From Desulfosporosinus sp. Sb-LF (GTDB lineage: Bacteria > Bacillota > Desulfitobacteriia > Desulfitobacteriales > Desulfitobacteriaceae): a stretch of DNA of 64,000 nt. The stretch is from NCBI RefSeq assembly GCF_004766055.1, contig NZ_SPQR01000009.1, forward strand, positions 1-64,000, given 5' to 3'. Within the stretch, counting starts at the first letter, position 1. Every line of letters starts with the position of its first letter. The notes beneath the pieces are model-generated. The model searched no databases, was not told the DNA's origin, and saw nothing but the letters and a program-made list of their open reading frames with translations. The translations under genes were made by a program, and so were the position numbers. This document shows positions 6,081-49,329 of this stretch, piece by piece.

Positions 6081-7391
6081 TTACTCAAAATGAGTCGGCT
6101 TGGTAACTTCAATAGTCAAAGCGTCCACAGCCTTTTTAACTAAGTTTCTTCTAAGGGTATGCTCATTTTCCTTGTTAAGTTTTGGATTTCCTACCGGGAA
6201 AGGAATAGCTATCGTCGGAACAATTCTGTTTGCGCCGACTGACTCAGAAATAGTCGTAATAGTTGCCATGTGAACAATAGGAATACCATATCGTTCGATT
6301 TCTTTTACAATCGTTGCGCCGCAACGAGTACAAGTCCCTCAGGTTGAGGTTAAAATAACACCATCTACCCCTGCAGCTTTTAATTCTGCTCCGATTTGTA
6401 CCCCAAATTCCACAGATTTACCGACAGCTGTTCCCGTTCCGGTGGTCGTATAGAACCAGTCGAAGACCTTTCCAATATATCCTTCAGCCTCAAATTCTTT
6501 TAACACATCTAAAGGCGCAACGCGGTCAGGCATCTCATTAGCATAGACTGGGTCATAGCCCCCATGGGTTGTATAATAGCAAGGAGCCTCAAGTGCATTA
6601 ATTTGGCTAATGTTGTATTTACCCCATTTTTGAGCACTGGCTGACTGTATATGATCCGGATTTCCTGCAGGAACGATGCCACCCGAAGTGCACAAAGCAA
6701 TGGTTGCCTTGCTTAAATCTTTAATGGCTGCAGCCGGTGAAACCACGTCGAACACAGGCATTGGCATTTCCGTTTCAAAGGGCTTGCCTTGTAGGCGGTT
6801 AATCAGCATTTCTACCGCTCTTTGTGAGCCTCTTTTTTCCACGAAGAGAGTCTTTCTCATGCCACGGGCAATGTAGCCTTCTACTTCGGGAGGTCCTACT
6901 TCGATTCCTTTGGCTAATTTGCAGGTTAGAGAAGCCATTATAGGTAATGCCTTGCGCATTCCGCCTGCAGAATCACTCGTACCGACTACGTAAGCAATCT
7001 CTTTGCAAAGATCTAATCCCGGGTTTTCCAAGTACATGCCCGTTATTACCGGGATGTTTAGTTCTTTAGAAACGGCTATAGAAATCTCTGCACAGGCGAC
7101 TCCATACCGACCAGCATTAAAAGCGGGTCCTGCTACAAACACATCCGGAGAAGCTTCTTTAATGGTGTTTAGAATGCTTTCCATTACCTCTTGTTTGTTC
7201 TCATTAAAGTAATTATCACCACAGATAATCGTGCCAACGACTTCGCCCTCTCCTTTAATCAACGTGTTAAAGCCTGTAGCGGGGCCGACCGTTTCCGGCC
7301 TGTACTCGGGAGGCATACTCGCTTTATCTTCACCTCCTACCTGGCCAAAAAATTGGTTTACGTAGTAAACAACTCTAAATTTATCTGACAT
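6081..7391 (-). CDS. Grd component B selenoprotein subunit (GrdB/GrdF/GrdH family), with selenocysteine
   Basis: This is the substrate-binding selenoprotein of glycine/sarcosine/betaine reductase. It makes a selenium-bound carboxymethyl adduct from the substrate and passes it to GrdA. The frame is broken by one UGA at codon 351 (6339-6341). Reading it as selenocysteine joins ...GVILTST to GTCTRCGATIVKEIER and gives the family signature U-x-x-C-x-x-C in a 436-residue protein, the usual length. The ATG at 7391 follows GGGGGA. The gene lies 19 bases after the component B alpha/beta gene. Automated calling would split it at the UGA. The sequence alone does not tell whether the substrate is betaine, sarcosine or glycine. 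Confidence 0.92.
6311..6341 (-). promoter_or_regulatory. UGA selenocysteine codon and SECIS-like hairpin in the component B gene
   Basis: Eleven bases after the UGA the mRNA has a 7-bp perfect stem TCGTTGC / GCAACGA with loop GGC. Its position and size fit bacterial SECIS elements bound by SelB. No selA, selB, selC or selD gene is seen in the window. Confidence 0.75.
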
Positions 7392-20364: not shown

Positions 20365-20412
20365 CAAACCATCTCCTTTAAAAGCTTATCAACCTCGTTC
20401 CCAGCCCCACGG

Positions 20413-20515
20413 CACAGCACCCAAGCAGAGGTGCGATTTTCTTAGAGAGCATGTCAGCGGCGTTGCGTCAAACAATAGCATGCAGCGCATGTATACGTAG
20501 AAAGCTCTCCTCGTC
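20413..20515. repeat. Shortened copy of the hut-cluster structured repeat
   Basis: It shares the block CAGCACC-x-AAGCAG-x-GG with the copy at 21853. It then joins the left end (GCGTCAA) straight to the right end (AATAGC-ATGCAGCG), lacking the central 130 bases. Terminal GAGAGC and GCTCTC pair. Confidence 0.6.
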
Positions 20516-20544
20516 GTTCCAATCCCCTTCCGACCCCAGACCAG

Positions 20545-20778
20545 AGGAAGTTTCTTAGCTTAGAGAAGCACTTTAGCGGAATCGCGTCAATGAGCGCAGA
20601 CGATAAAGCGTAAAGAAACTCAACGGGACTTGTCCATGGATGGACTGATGCCGCGGTGCCAAGGATGGCAAGGAGCGGCGCACTACAGAACGCCCCAGGG
20701 TTTTGCGTTTTAGCCTTATCGTCAAGCGAATAGCGATGCAGCGTGTGCGATCACGATAGTCTCCGGTGGAGACTATCG
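20545..20778. repeat. Structured repeat, copy A (hutI-ftcD gap)
   Basis: About 230 bases, almost identical over its core to the copy at 22940. The left stem arm 20599-20609 (GACGATAAAGC) pairs with 20713-20723 (GCCTTATCGTC). The apical part contains GCCGC/GCGGC enclosing TGCCA/TGGCA. The right end carries an extra 11-bp perfect hairpin, CGATAGTCTCC-GGT-GGAGACTATCG (20754-20778), absent from the other copies. Frames across it are not genes. The rest of the 20368-20839 gap is the shortened copy. Confidence 0.8.
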
Positions 20779-20839
20779 CCAAAGGCGCTTACCTAAAACG
20801 AACACATACCGCCGTAGGATGCTATGACACTTCCTTCCC

Positions 20840-21736
20840 CTAAAACCCAAACACACGCTTCTCTAAAATCTGCTCACTTGAAAAATCACGCAAACCCAAA
20901 TAGTAGGTTGCCACATCCATCATAGCATCAAGCGGAACCAGACCAACAATTTCGCTACCGACAATCGGCACTCCGAAGTGAGCGGCTTCAGTTTTAATAA
21001 ACTCCATAGCCCGATACAGTGGAGTTCCTTCGGTATCCACCATATTCATTGAGATTTGCACAAGACCTTGCTCGGAAAGATCAATCCCCAGCGCCTTGAC
21101 GTTGACAAATCCTCCGGAGCTCCCACGAATCCCCTTGGCAATAGCCTTACCAATCTCAATATTTGTAGTTCCAAGGTTTACATTAAACGCAACAAGAGGC
21201 GGACGAGCCCCAATGGCAATCGCTCCCGCCTTTCCCAAAACACTCGGTCCATAATCCGGAGCACGCTCAGGCGTCGTGATACTCTCCTTCAGTCCTTCAT
21301 ATTGCCCTCTACGAACCTCCGCGAGATTCCGTCTTTCGGCCCTTGTCGCCGCCTTCTCATAGAGATAGACAGGGATTGAAAGTTCTCGTCCAACCCGTTC
21401 CCCTAACGTTTTAGCCAGCTCAACACACTCTTCCATGGACATACCCCGTACAGGAACGAAAGGAACAACATCCGTAGCTCCCATCCTTGGATGTTCTCCC
21501 TGATGTTGATCAAGATCAATCTTCTCGGCCGCTTTAGAAATCAGCCTCCAGGCAGCTTCAAGCACCTTCTCTGGTTCACCAATCATACTAATAACCGTCC
21601 GATTGTGGTCCGCATTACTAGAATAATCCAGCAAAGTAACACCCGCTACCTGCCTCACCTCAGCAAGAATTTCATCTACAACATCCAGCCGCCTACCCTC
21701 ACTAATATTTGGAATACATTCTACGACTTTTACCAC
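20840..21736 (-). CDS. ftcD: Glutamate formimidoyltransferase
   Basis: A 298-residue protein that moves the formimino group from formiminoglutamate to THF, giving 5-formimino-THF and glutamate. Family marks are VVECIPNISEGR at the N-terminus, LLDYSSNADHNRTVIS, DQHQGEHPRMGATDVVPFVP (about 78-97), LYEKAATRAERRNLAEVRRG and GFVNVKALGIDL. The start is taken as GTG at 21736 (MVKVVEC...), with GGGAGA about nine bases before; the ATG at 21745 overlaps that ribosome site. It lies between fchA and hutI, feeding histidine carbon into the THF pool. Confidence 0.93.
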   Translation of the reverse strand: MVKVVECIPNISEGRRLDVVDEILAEVRQVAGVTLLDYSSNADHNRTVISMIGEPEKVLEAAWRLISKAAEKIDLDQHQGEHPRMGATDVVPFVPVRGMSMEECVELAKTLGERVGRELSIPVYLYEKAATRAERRNLAEVRRGQYEGLKESITTPERAPDYGPSVLGKAGAIAIGARPPLVAFNVNLGTTNIEIGKAIAKGIRGSSGGFVNVKALGIDLSEQGLVQISMNMVDTEGTPLYRAMEFIKTEAAHFGVPIVGSEIVGLVPLDAMMDVATYYLGLRDFSSEQILEKRVFGF

Positions 21737-21852
21737 ATACAACATCTCCCTAAAACTACTAATCCTTGTATCTCAATATTCCATTTCCCACATTCCGTAT
21801 CCTATATCCCGCAGGCCCGTTTTCACGTATTCATGTATTCCCGTATCCTGAT

Positions 21853-22135
21853 CCCCGGCGCAGCACCGAAGCAGGGGGGCGATTTGCCTCAAGCCAGAAA
21901 CTATCCCCAATGTGCGTCCGTGATCCAACCCTGAATCGCTTCAATGAGCGCAAACGCCAAGGCGTTAAGAAACGCAACGGAACTTGTCCATGACTCGAAC
22001 AGGACGTTTGAGGTTAGAGCATCGCCATGGATGGCAAGGAGCGGCGCACTTACAGAACAACCTAGAGGTTTTGCGTTTTAGCCTCGGCGTCAAGCGAATA
22101 GCGATGGAGCGTGTGCGAACGGGCTAAGACACTGA
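21853..22135. repeat. Structured repeat, copy C (ftcD-fchA gap)
   Basis: The most diverged copy. The left half contains CAGCACCGAAGCAGG. The stem arm 21953-21963 (AACGCCAAGGC) pairs with 22081-22091 (GCCTCGGCGTC), with the two A/C positions becoming U-G pairs in minus-strand RNA. It is joined to the conserved ATGGATGGCAAGGAGCGGCG apical segment and to GTGTGCGAACGGGCTAAG at the right end. It fills the whole intergenic gap. Confidence 0.75.
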
Positions 22136-22140
22136 CTCTT

Positions 22141-22827
22141 CTACTTCAACCTCTCCAACACCGTACCCTGACATTCCTCGAACAATCGATTTCCCTCAGA
22201 ACGTATCACTTGGCATTCCACCAACAAATCCTCTTTCGTTTCAATGGACTTTAACCCCAACGCATTAATTTGCACATTATAGAGAGCTCCCTCAAGACCC
22301 GACTTGAACATTAAAGCCGCAACTCCCATGTCACTCAAAGCGTTGGGATTTCCCTTAGCAAGCAAACTAGGGATTTCACGTAAACCTGCCAAACACTCCT
22401 TAGCCGTTCGCAAGGGAATCTCCGCCGCCTTAATTGTGGCCACTTCCAAAGCCTCACGACGAAGCATCTTTTCATCCTCAGTATTCTTCGGAAGACCCAA
22501 GGCCTCCATCACGACCTTGAAACCATGGGTATCCTCATCAACTAAAGCCAATAACAATTCTTGCCTCGCCACTGCCATGTCCATTAATGACCTCATCTCA
22601 TCCTGAACAGCAGCAAACTTCTCCCGCCCAATCGTCAATCGACAAACCATAGCCACCAGCGCATATCCTTGAGCCCCAGCATAAGCAGCCACACTCCCGC
22701 CACCCGGCGCAGGCGACGACGAAGCCACTTCACGGGCAAATTCACTTAAACTCAAATCCCTAAGATTCAAATTACCCACACCCTTCGTTAGTGTCAACCC
22801 AAAATTCCCCAAATCAAGAACTCCCAC
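22141..22827 (-). CDS. fchA: Formimidoyltetrahydrofolate cyclodeaminase
   Basis: A 228-residue helical protein of the cyclodeaminase/cyclohydrolase family. It converts 5-formimino-THF to 5,10-methenyl-THF plus ammonia. The signature SSPAPGGGSVAAYAGAQGYAL lies at about 34-54, followed by MVCRLTIGREKF and NALSDMGVAALM. It starts at GTG 22827 with only a weak ribosome site; internal starts at KGVGN (GTG) or NLN (TTG) are possible and would shorten it by about 15-20 residues. It lies between hutU and ftcD. Confidence 0.9.
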   Translation of the reverse strand: MGVLDLGNFGLTLTKGVGNLNLRDLSLSEFAREVASSSPAPGGGSVAAYAGAQGYALVAMVCRLTIGREKFAAVQDEMRSLMDMAVARQELLLALVDEDTHGFKVVMEALGLPKNTEDEKMLRREALEVATIKAAEIPLRTAKECLAGLREIPSLLAKGNPNALSDMGVAALMFKSGLEGALYNVQINALGLKSIETKEDLLVECQVIRSEGNRLFEECQGTVLERLK

Positions 22828-22939
22828 TGTATCCGTTAACGTTAGCCAAGCCTACGTCCCTCGTCCCCCGCTTAACAAACGCTTTTTCGTCAAAGACGCA
22901 AACATCCTCACACGTTCCAACCCCGTCGACCCACAAACC

Positions 22940-23176
22940 CAAGGGAGTTTCTTAGCTCAGAGAAGCACGAAGAGCGGAATCGCGTCAATGAGCGCAGATG
23001 CTAAGGCGTAAAGAAACGCAACGGGACTTGTCCATGGATGGACTGATGCCGCGGTGCCAAGGATGGCAAGGAGCGGCGCACTTGCAGAACAGCCCCAGGG
23101 TTTTGCGTTTTAGCCTTAGCATCAAGCGAATAGCGATGCAGCGTGTGCGAACGGGCTAAGAAACTTCCTCCTCGAT
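22940..23176. repeat. Structured repeat, copy B (fchA-hutU gap), the most complete copy
   Basis: Its ends are complementary: AGTTTCTTAGCTC (22946-22958) with GGGCTAAGAAACT (23153-23165). The inner stem GATGCTAAGGC (22997-23007) pairs perfectly with GCCTTAGCATC (23113-23123). It continues after an internal loop with AAACGCAA (23014-23021) and TTGCGTTT (23103-23110). The right end is partly duplicated at 23178-23205 (GCAGCGTGTTTCTAAGAAAC). It is more than 90% like copy A in the core by eye. Confidence 0.8.
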
Positions 23177-23190
23177 ACAGCAGCGTGTTT

Positions 23191-25227
23191 CTAAGAAACT
23201 TCCCCCCCGAACAACCCCTCAACTAACCTATCCACCAATTCCTCCTTAGGAATAAAAGGAACCGTAATATGTCCTAAACCCTTATAACGCTCATTAAACT
23301 CAATGCTCGTTTCAATAGAGTGTTCGTTTCTAGCCCAAGACCGCCGTGCCACTCCGCCCATGACGTCCCATAACAGAGCGGACTTAATCACGTTATCCAC
23401 TCGCTCGCTCCCATCGAGTACCAAGCCAAAACCACCATTGATAGCTTTTCCAATGCCTACTCCCCCACCGTTGTGAAGGGATACAAGGCTCATTCCTCTA
23501 GCGGCGTCTCCGGCAAAGCTTTGTACAGCCATATCTGCCATAACATTACTGCCATCTTTGATATTGGCGGTTTCCCTAAACGGTGAATCCGTCCCGCTCA
23601 CATCATGATGATCCCGTCCGAGCATAACCGGTCCGATCTCGCCCGTGCGAACCATTTCGTTGAATTTAAGCGCGATCTTTATCCGCCCTTCAGCATCCTG
23701 ATATAGGATTCTAGCTTGCGTGCCGACCACGAGTTTATTTTTCTCAGCATCCTTAATCCAGATATAGTTATCCCTATCTTGGCCCCGACGATTTGGATCG
23801 ATACAAGACATCGCTGCCTCATCCGTTTTTCTCAAATCTTCTTTTTTGCCGCTGAGGCAAACCCATCTAAAAGGCCCATACCCATAATCAAAGAGTTCTG
23901 GCCCCATAATATCTTCAACATAGGACGGGAAAATAAAGCCATCCTTTTCATCTACACCGTTTTTGGATATCTCATTCACCCCAGCATCATAAACCGCTTT
24001 CATGAAAGAATTTCCATAATCAAAGAAATAGGTGCCTTGTTCTACTAAAGTACTGATCAACTCGAATTGACGCTTTAAACTCCGATCGACGAGTTCCTTA
24101 AATTCAGCCCGATTCGTGCTAAGAAGCCTTGTCCTCTCTTCAAAAGAAATACCCTGCGGGCAATAGCCCCCTTCATAAGCAACATGGCAAGACGTCTGAT
24201 CTGAGAGCAAATCCACTTTGATCTTATTTTCAACCGCATACTCCAGCAAGTCCACGACATTCCCTTGGTAAGCAATCGACATAGGTTCTTTCTTCTGCAC
24301 ATACTCATCAGCAATACGGAAAACTTCGTCAAGATCAGCCGACACACGACTAACCCAGCCCTGAGCATAGCGGGTCTTTATCCTCGACTCATCGACTTCC
24401 GCGATAATCCCAACCCCTTGGGCTATTTCCACGGATTTCCCTTGAGCCCCACTCATACCACCAAGACCCGACGAGATAAATAATCGTCCTCGTATATCCC
24501 CATCATGAGGAACCCCTAACATTAATCTTCCGGCATTGAGCAAAGTGTTGAACGTACCATGCACAATTCCCTGGGGTCCGATATACATCCAGCCGCCCGC
24601 CGTCATTTGACCATAATTGGCCACACCCATTTGTTCAGCAACTTCCCAATCCTTCTGATTGTCAAACATACCGACCATCAAAGAATTGGTTATAATCACC
24701 CTAGGCGCTTCTGGCCGCGAGGGGAATAGTCCTACTGGGTGGCCCGATTCCATGACCAAGGTCTGATGATCTGTTATCACTTCAAGATATTTCTTAATCA
24801 AACGATACTGCAGCCAGTTTTGACAGACACTCCCCGTTTCACCATAGGTGACAAGTTCATAGGGATAAAGGGCTACTTCAAAATCCAGGTTATTATCGAT
24901 CATAACCTGGAAGGCCTTACCTTCAATGCAGTTCCCTTTATAGTCATCGATTGGCTTCCCATGCAATGGCCCGGCTGGACGAAAACGATAAGCGTAAATC
25001 CTACCTCTGGTCCGCAATTCTTCGAGAAATTCCGGGGCCAATGTTTCATGCAGTTCCTCAGGCACATAGCGCAGAGCATTTTTCAAAGCGATCTTCGTTT
25101 GAGCCTGTGATAGACTAAACCCCCTGTCAGGAGCCCTTCTGATTCCTTCTACAAACTCCTGTATTTCTGGGAGTTCCGGTTTTAGCTTTATGGTCATGGC
25201 TTGTGAGATGTCATAATTATTGATCAT
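23191..25227 (-). CDS. hutU: Urocanate hydratase
   Basis: A 678-residue NAD-dependent enzyme converting urocanate to imidazolonepropionate. Visible marks are GRIYAYRFRPAGPLHGKPID, the substrate/NAD region FISSGLGGMSGAQGKSVEIA, the active-site-type cysteine segment DQTSCHVAYEGGYCPQGISF and LHNGGGVGIGKAINGGFG near the C-terminus. It belongs to the longer class of urocanate hydratases (about 670 residues rather than 550). The ATG at 25227 follows GAGGAGG; an upstream start at 25248 overlaps that site. It is first in the visible hut cluster; no histidine ammonia-lyase gene is in the window. Confidence 0.93.
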   Translation of the reverse strand: MINNYDISQAMTIKLKPELPEIQEFVEGIRRAPDRGFSLSQAQTKIALKNALRYVPEELHETLAPEFLEELRTRGRIYAYRFRPAGPLHGKPIDDYKGNCIEGKAFQVMIDNNLDFEVALYPYELVTYGETGSVCQNWLQYRLIKKYLEVITDHQTLVMESGHPVGLFPSRPEAPRVIITNSLMVGMFDNQKDWEVAEQMGVANYGQMTAGGWMYIGPQGIVHGTFNTLLNAGRLMLGVPHDGDIRGRLFISSGLGGMSGAQGKSVEIAQGVGIIAEVDESRIKTRYAQGWVSRVSADLDEVFRIADEYVQKKEPMSIAYQGNVVDLLEYAVENKIKVDLLSDQTSCHVAYEGGYCPQGISFEERTRLLSTNRAEFKELVDRSLKRQFELISTLVEQGTYFFDYGNSFMKAVYDAGVNEISKNGVDEKDGFIFPSYVEDIMGPELFDYGYGPFRWVCLSGKKEDLRKTDEAAMSCIDPNRRGQDRDNYIWIKDAEKNKLVVGTQARILYQDAEGRIKIALKFNEMVRTGEIGPVMLGRDHHDVSGTDSPFRETANIKDGSNVMADMAVQSFAGDAARGMSLVSLHNGGGVGIGKAINGGFGLVLDGSERVDNVIKSALLWDVMGGVARRSWARNEHSIETSIEFNERYKGLGHITVPFIPKEELVDRLVEGLFGGEVS

Positions 25228-49221: not shown

Positions 49222-49329
49222 TTTTATTACACCTCCCATGCCCTAGACTCGCCATTGCAGGTCGGTTTTTCTTAAACAAAAAAACCCGTTATACCTGATT
49301 CGCGCGGTTGCGGTGAGAAGTCACCACAT
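49222..49329 (-). ncRNA. L21-leader-like regulatory RNA
   Basis: The transcript leader between the sigma-A promoter and rplU has a small GGTGA-CTTC-TCACC hairpin, then a long bulged stem. In this stem CAGGT pairs with ACCTG and CGG(G)TTTTT with AAAAACCG. Position and size fit the L21 leader family, thought to mediate autoregulation. The assignment rests on context and hand folding. Confidence 0.55.

Follow-up and report, generated by a model that had tools for sequence, protein, structure and literature searches.

A 64,000-nucleotide (nt) stretch of Desulfosporosinus sp. Sb-LF (contig NZ_SPQR01000009.1, positions 1 to 64,000; hereafter the window) carries, in the intergenic gaps of its hut gene cluster, copies of a structured repeat whose family is real and unusual: its members are mobile, non-coding and maintained by the fold of one strand. 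The folded shape is kept throughout the class Desulfitobacteriia while the sequence has changed almost completely, and the family is apparently large and not previously described. We consider it probable that these are non-autonomous mobile elements propagated by way of a folded single plus strand, most likely RNA, and that they are passengers in the hut cluster.

Conservation of the fold and of one strand

Selection for structure, which a first-pass annotation of the window had proposed from the hut copies, is supported by compensatory change both within the genus and across the class. Among 40 Desulfosporosinus copies picked from full-length matches of the short form (alignment A1), 21 of the 55 pairs are changed on both sides, against 6.4 in shuffled alignments and 3-6 when partners are slid. 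Alignment A2, fitted to the model, comprises 81 matches (61 distinct rows) at 69 loci in 13 genera, out of 264 in 15 genomes covering these genera; one genome (G028) is of the window's own genus. L385 and L418 (G057) are the same place, as are L335 and L363 (G050). Here both sides have changed in 48/55 pairs, and the cells with such changes number 813, compared with 224 after shuffling and at most 217 after sliding. Double changes also appear in 44/55 pairs with RNAalifold in A5, in which 30 copies, seven of them Desulfosporosinus copies of A1, were aligned by sequence alone. Terminal inverted repeats are nearly fixed within A1; between genera the outer stems have unrelated sequences that retain their complementarity. 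Conservation on the plus strand lies in the internal loops, which have GA on each of their two sides, and in the apex GGTT-AC...CC...GAGGTTT. Loops belong to the most conserved parts of the element, and A makes up 38% of unpaired and 20% of paired positions on that strand.

The covariance model built from A1 (R1) gave an estimate of the extent of the family in genome searches confined to the class. It matches 61/82 genomes and 20/27 genera of the class, including 55/73 genomes of the order; outside the order, six of nine genomes have matches, and five of those hold 12-29. Matches are present in 23/29 Desulfosporosinus genomes, and the window's own genome has 37 or 42 depending on the query, with fragments counted, or 29 model matches under strict filters. 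Most forms of the element measure about 175-300 nt; those with inserted hairpins and ends reach about 475 nt. In some copies whole hairpins are inserted in the hairpin loops of the element, in the manner of expansion segments (L074 8213-8590, L406 and L035 10200-10463). Contigs C6 and C9 of the own genome (566 kb of 4.27 Mb) hold 36 of 46 end-sequence matches, at two ends per element.

A one-sided transition in a Watson-Crick majority pair appears as G-U on one strand and as A-C on its complement, and this asymmetry can tell which strand is under constraint. After removal of copies more than 90% identical, the plus strand of 38 copies across 13 genera shows 68 G-U against 19 A-C deviations, or 29 against 3 where both neighbouring pairs are intact. 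As a control for alignment bias, a minus-strand model (A3, R2) was used for a realignment (A4, 40 copies after the same removal), in which the minus strand has 28 G-U against 69 A-C, and 3 against 23 with intact neighbours. The binomial p values are 1e-7 (plus) and 4e-5 (minus model), uncorrected for relatedness, and removal at 80% identity shrinks the bias to 35:14 (24 copies, plus) and 19:37 (26 copies, minus model). The structure-free alignment A5 gives 50:21 for the plus strand. Since the G-U excess is present whether copies are antisense (39:6, 21 copies) or sense (15:5, nine copies) to genes, a mutation bias linked to transcription is unlikely. The excess means that the strand whose fold is kept is the one antisense to the hut mRNA. 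The first-pass annotation had preferred the minus strand, the sense of that mRNA, from three non-paired positions that are indeed all A/C on the plus strand (one in copy A, two in C and none in B); these are a small sample that points in a misleading direction, and the counts across genera contradict that preference.

The hut gaps, mobility and insertion sites

A copy in common orientation had been reported in each of the gaps hutI-ftcD, ftcD-fchA and fchA-hutU, together with a shortened copy, and we locate these as copies A, C and B and as a shorter one, lacking its middle, identified by eye. Read by eye, the 11-bp stems with their compensatory changes are as first described. The features, all on the plus strand, are as follows.

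20413-20512, plus: shortened copy with the middle deleted, seen by eye (coordinates approximate); no covariance-model match
20513-20543, plus: 5' tail of copy A (CGTCGTTCCAA..GACCCCAG), conserved past the outer stem
20544-20838, plus: copy A, long form with two extra hairpin modules (coordinates approximate; model match 20544-20763)
20625-20683, plus: apical long-form module of copy A, with hairpin loops ATGGAT (20636-20641) and AAGGAT
20750-20820, plus: the other hairpin module inserted in copy A, second in order (ATCACGATAGTCTCC..GCCGTAGGAT)
20821-20836, plus: right arm of copy A, immediately before the ftcD stop codon
21891-22138, plus: copy C (model match, coordinates approximate), with a diverged left outer arm and its right end 2 nt off the fchA stop codon
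21980-22050, plus: apical module of copy C, which has an altered first hairpin and the loop ATGGAT in its second
22901-22940, plus: 5' tail of copy B
22941-23170, plus: copy B, complete long form (model match)
23023-23081, plus: apical long-form module of copy B, with loops ATGGAT and AAGGAT
23180-23208, plus: right-end fragment (coordinates approximate)

Copy B folds 4.6 standard deviations below shuffled sequences on the plus strand and 5.1 below on the minus strand, so its fold is not due to chance. On the minus strand, the fragment at 23180-23208 encodes the C-terminus of hutU (GEVS) and its TAG stop codon (23191-23193). Such 3' end fragments (GAACGTGCTAAGACACTTCCTCC) are repeated and stacked behind the main copy at the right ends of L171, L178, L192 and L211 as well as in the window. 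Among the proteins bordering the gaps, hutI, FtcD and hutU score above the NCBIfam cut-off, and FchA is the sole NCBIfam match of its protein, below the cut-off (160.5 vs 275 bits). The closest named relatives of hutU are from Desulfosporosinus (90-92%). Elsewhere in the window there are a strong match to SECIS_4, the bacterial selenocysteine element (6301-6338, minus, 56.9 bits), a group II intron fragment (RF02001, 14465-14538, minus, 40 bits) and a ribosomal protein L21 leader (49235-49319, minus, 36.4 bits with a gathering threshold of 36).

A role tied to the hut mRNA, one of the options first raised, finds no support in the comparison of eight hut loci of Desulfosporosinus and Paradesulfitobacterium: a gap that holds a copy in one relative can be short and without any copy in another, which argues against a conserved hut function. 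The model matches in at least one hut gap of L035, L074, L036 and L037, always in the orientation seen in the window. L035 and L074 also have, at one site each that is occupied in the window, a tight gap with no copy (57 and 44 nt, flanks included). L032 has a fragment only, and in L031, L033 and L034 a different gene lies between hutU and hutI, with no model match there and, in L033, an apex-like stretch visible by eye. Filled and empty sites also occur at three more loci, which have matches in 24, 28 and 14 of the 29 genomes. Together with the copies of G041, a genome of another genus, these comparisons bear out the suggestion that the repeat is a mobile structured element. In G041, two subfamilies of near-identical 173-nt cores stand in different surroundings; both have common outer ends (CCCTG ... 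ATCAGTGGTGC hairpin GGRAGTC), with the core in opposite orientation between them and no clear duplication. The 3'-end pattern of G041, used to look for an autonomous version, occurs at 44 places, and among the three core-less places that were read no transposase was seen: two are longer or damaged copies and one is cut by the contig end. In the window's own genome, 42/46 end-sequence matches lie at or beside known copies. A blastn search with copy B against plasmid and phage records gave no match. Most of the near-identical G041 copies (L340-L357) have CTGACTC-like heptamers arrayed on their flanks, and a second repeat, with a constant hairpin loop GGGGACGGTTCTT and variable yet complementary stems, lies near copies in L171, L178, L207, L035 and others.

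Gene context was read with a home-made hexamer script, and not a published gene caller, for 106 Desulfosporosinus elements from the window and 80 fetched stretches chosen among the best matches. Flanking genes are both antisense to the plus strand in 60 cases and both sense in 21 (p 2e-5), convergent in 14 and divergent in three; the remaining eight have no neighbour on one side. In A2, context was read for 64/81 copies (both antisense 34, both sense 18, convergent eight, divergent four). Local GC skew follows the genes, so that replication direction is inseparable from gene direction as the cause of this orientation bias. Where the gene next to the GGGAGGAAG end is antisense (75 cases), this end lies at most 10 nt from a stop codon, or within the end of the gene, in 30, and stops within 60 nt of an element are TAG in 33/53 cases compared with 180/585 elsewhere (p 1e-5). 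Two loci could be compared with empty relatives. In L155, AAAATA precedes the element, which lies 16 nt past the stop codon, and a relative (93% protein identity) is empty there; in L144 the empty relative reads TTTAAGGAG and the filled one TTTAGGAG, continuing into the element. These comparisons suggest that the TAG stops may be a product of insertion after TA. Against this, the 9 nt that precede each of 69 copies show no enrichment of TA itself (28 vs 28), only of TAG (23 vs 7.5) and GG.

The insertion beside TA in these two loci, the inverted ends fixed within the genus and the clustering of changes in adjacent pairs in some copies are what would be expected of an ordinary DNA repeat, of the miniature inverted-repeat transposable element (MITE) or ERIC-like type, whose arms are corrected against each other with no selection on a single strand. 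Palindrome-arm correction works by template switching. It predicts no strand bias, yet a strong one is seen in the comparison of genera and for either gene orientation, and it should erase internal loops, which are instead among the best conserved parts; moreover, TA is not enriched overall. We therefore regard this explanation as distinctly improbable. The first-pass annotation had named a MITE with fixed ends as a possible refutation; such an element does not explain the copies, since the outer stems are not a fixed sequence.

Mode of propagation

Our preferred interpretation is that propagation passes through a single, folded plus strand, most probably an RNA bound by a protein, that only copies with an intact fold would spread, and that landed copies would then decay. 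The hut copies would be passengers, surviving because they follow stop codons, and their constrained strand is antisense to the operon. A more far-reaching version, which we find doubtful, is that of a class-wide parasitic RNA that would spread as folded RNA, need only its fold and a few loop motifs, swap stems and hairpin domains, and, in its long form, recruit CsrA.

The folded plus strand could also be DNA. The bottom strands of attC sites and IS200/IS605 elements are folded single-stranded DNA that is cut and joined by an enzyme, and a plus-strand DNA hairpin handled by an HUH- or integron-type enzyme would account for the strand-specific tolerance of wobble pairs, for the shared ends of G041 without clear duplication, for a location directly after stop codons in which the gene is antisense to the constrained strand, and for the lack of a visible promoter. 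On the other hand, the ends are not conserved between genera, the GGA hairpin loops of the long forms look RNA-like, and no such enzyme is known here, HUH and integrase genes not having been searched for. We judge this mechanism unlikely; it shares the single-strand part of the interpretation preferred above, and the likelihoods given to the two overlap and do not sum to one.

Several observations weigh against propagation through a folded plus-strand RNA. Single-stranded DNA would tolerate G-T pairs too, and in the hut gaps region the lone promoter-like match on the plus strand is weak and lies inside ftcD, and such matches are fewer than in shuffled sequences; conservation upstream of one G041 subfamily extends over only some 13 nt. 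The strand counts use sequences as units, not evolutionary events. In A1 alone a strand-neutral recount gives 28:20, which is not significant and replaces a first count on a plus-strand fold in Desulfosporosinus (G-U 20 vs A-C 8), so that this genus by itself cannot settle the strand; the split is 14:14 in 25 antisense copies and 13:4 in nine sense copies, and we interpret the equality in the former as decay of landed copies. The orientation of G041 copies is unbiased (antisense to sense 12:10), with p of only 0.11 for the difference from Desulfosporosinus. No target-site duplication was established; at L144 and L155 TA precedes the 5' end and the 3' boundary is indistinct, and TA, which these two loci had raised as a target, shows no overall enrichment ahead of the copies. 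No mobilising enzyme was found in a search limited to IS630-type DDE_3 and IS1182 relatives: DDE_3 is absent from the own genome, which speaks against IS630 as the mobiliser, and IS1182 relatives are absent from both the own genome and G041. Finally, 21/82 genomes of the class have no R1 match.

An association with insertion sequences (ISs) was found in a few genomes. In G050, which has ten matches, each of the six fetched copies is followed some 97 nt downstream by a whole or broken IS1182-type transposase gene (PF13751, PF05598, PF01609), and a diverged copy has paired changes in its outer stem; in G051, G056 and G057 a copy is found 93-100 nt upstream of such a gene in the same orientation. 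This constant place and orientation would suit a leader RNA of IS1182-type transposases, of which the free copies would be remnants. However, the element is present at only 4/30 loci of IS1182 relatives, an 80% identical relative is without it, and the 80 stretches around Desulfosporosinus copies hold no IS1182-type gene, so we consider a leader origin highly improbable. Given the 4/30 loci, the IS1182-type IS is a carrier of the element, and not its general source. IS1272 is a member of the IS1182 family. In the accessible part of its description (PMC5678879), its transposase targets inverted-repeat (hairpin) structures, and by analogy a transposase aimed at hairpins is a possible reason for the meeting of element and IS. 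The outcome differs, as IS1272 there replaces the hairpin and here the element sits inside a few IS copies.

Interspersed palindromes of bacteria are usually seen as debris at the DNA level, while here the fold of one strand outlasts the sequence, class-wide and in copies that move. Whether certain repeats of bacteria propagate as folded single strands becomes testable here, with a covariance model available for finding them. It also calls for caution, as covariation in an intergenic repeat need not imply regulation of the adjoining genes.

Long forms and known systems

Copies A, B and C carry an apical module of two hairpins, the first of which is altered in C. Among 50 distinct modules, from all loci fetched, loop 1 reads ATGGAT in 26, AAGGAT in 13, ACGGAT in three, CTGGAT in one and otherwise in seven, so that GGA is in the first hexaloop of 43/50 modules and 42 of them are ANGGAT. 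Loop 2 is a GGA hexaloop, mostly AAGGAT, in 33/50, and 33 modules continue with a third motif, GGAG. The signature of CsrA binding is GGA placed in a hairpin loop. The module recurs in another genus (G041), and the same idea has been put forward for the TwoAYGGAY RNAs of Clostridia, which are proposed as CsrA binders in the accessible part of PMC4333381. The long forms might then act as a host regulatory RNA, a sponge for CsrA through the two ANGGAU hairpins, with its dose set by copy number. We hold this to be very unlikely, as 45/62 full-length matches are under 190 nt and too short for the module, the modules are mostly from close relatives and not independent, the copies are mainly antisense to operons with no promoter seen, and csrA was not found in the fetched loci, no genome-wide search for it having been made. 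By analogy, the CsrA-like loops of the long forms provide a lead only.

Rfam comparison at gathering and at permissive thresholds gave no match for the element, in agreement with the initial view that it fits no known family. HEARO and omega RNAs are structured RNAs of mobile elements. The likeness to them is that of a structured non-coding unit spread by mobility; the element has no Rfam match to them. Integron attC sites are sequence-variable folded sites behind stop codons in which the folded strand is the antisense one, and their ends carry conserved R and L boxes. The present element resembles them as a variable folded site just behind a stop codon with the antisense strand folded; it differs in being longer, in lying in ordinary operons and in having conserved internal parts, and its ends vary between genera with no conserved R- or L-type boxes. 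TwoAYGGAY (RF01731) and the CsrB/RsmZ sponges resemble the long-form apical module in its two hairpins with A-N-GGA loops, and tandem GA, as present here, is also reported for TwoAYGGAY in the accessible part of PMC4333381. Here, by contrast, AYGGAY loops are restricted to long forms, and loop 1 has A as well as T and C at its second letter. Not every copy has the module, its surroundings showed no sign of an RNA gene, and there is no Rfam match, cmscan on 20400-23250 giving none to RF01731 up to an E-value of 5.

A literature search covering few subscription papers found no paper describing the elements; none are described in the accessible parts of PMC2864571, PMC2229807 and PMC4333381, and a search of PMC3733652 for terms of the relevant taxa gave nothing. 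The closest in appearance are ERIC, RUP, Correia-NEMIS and RU, which, as far as the accessible part of PMC2229807 describes them, are palindromic intergenic repeats of about 100-200 bp with many copies, often with TA at their termini and in some cases co-transcribed with operons, and which mostly have terminal repeats of fixed sequence and belong to one species group. The present family is like them in size, intergenic site, palindromic structure and copy number. Unlike them, its termini vary freely, its pairing is kept throughout a class, and it shows a preference for one strand.

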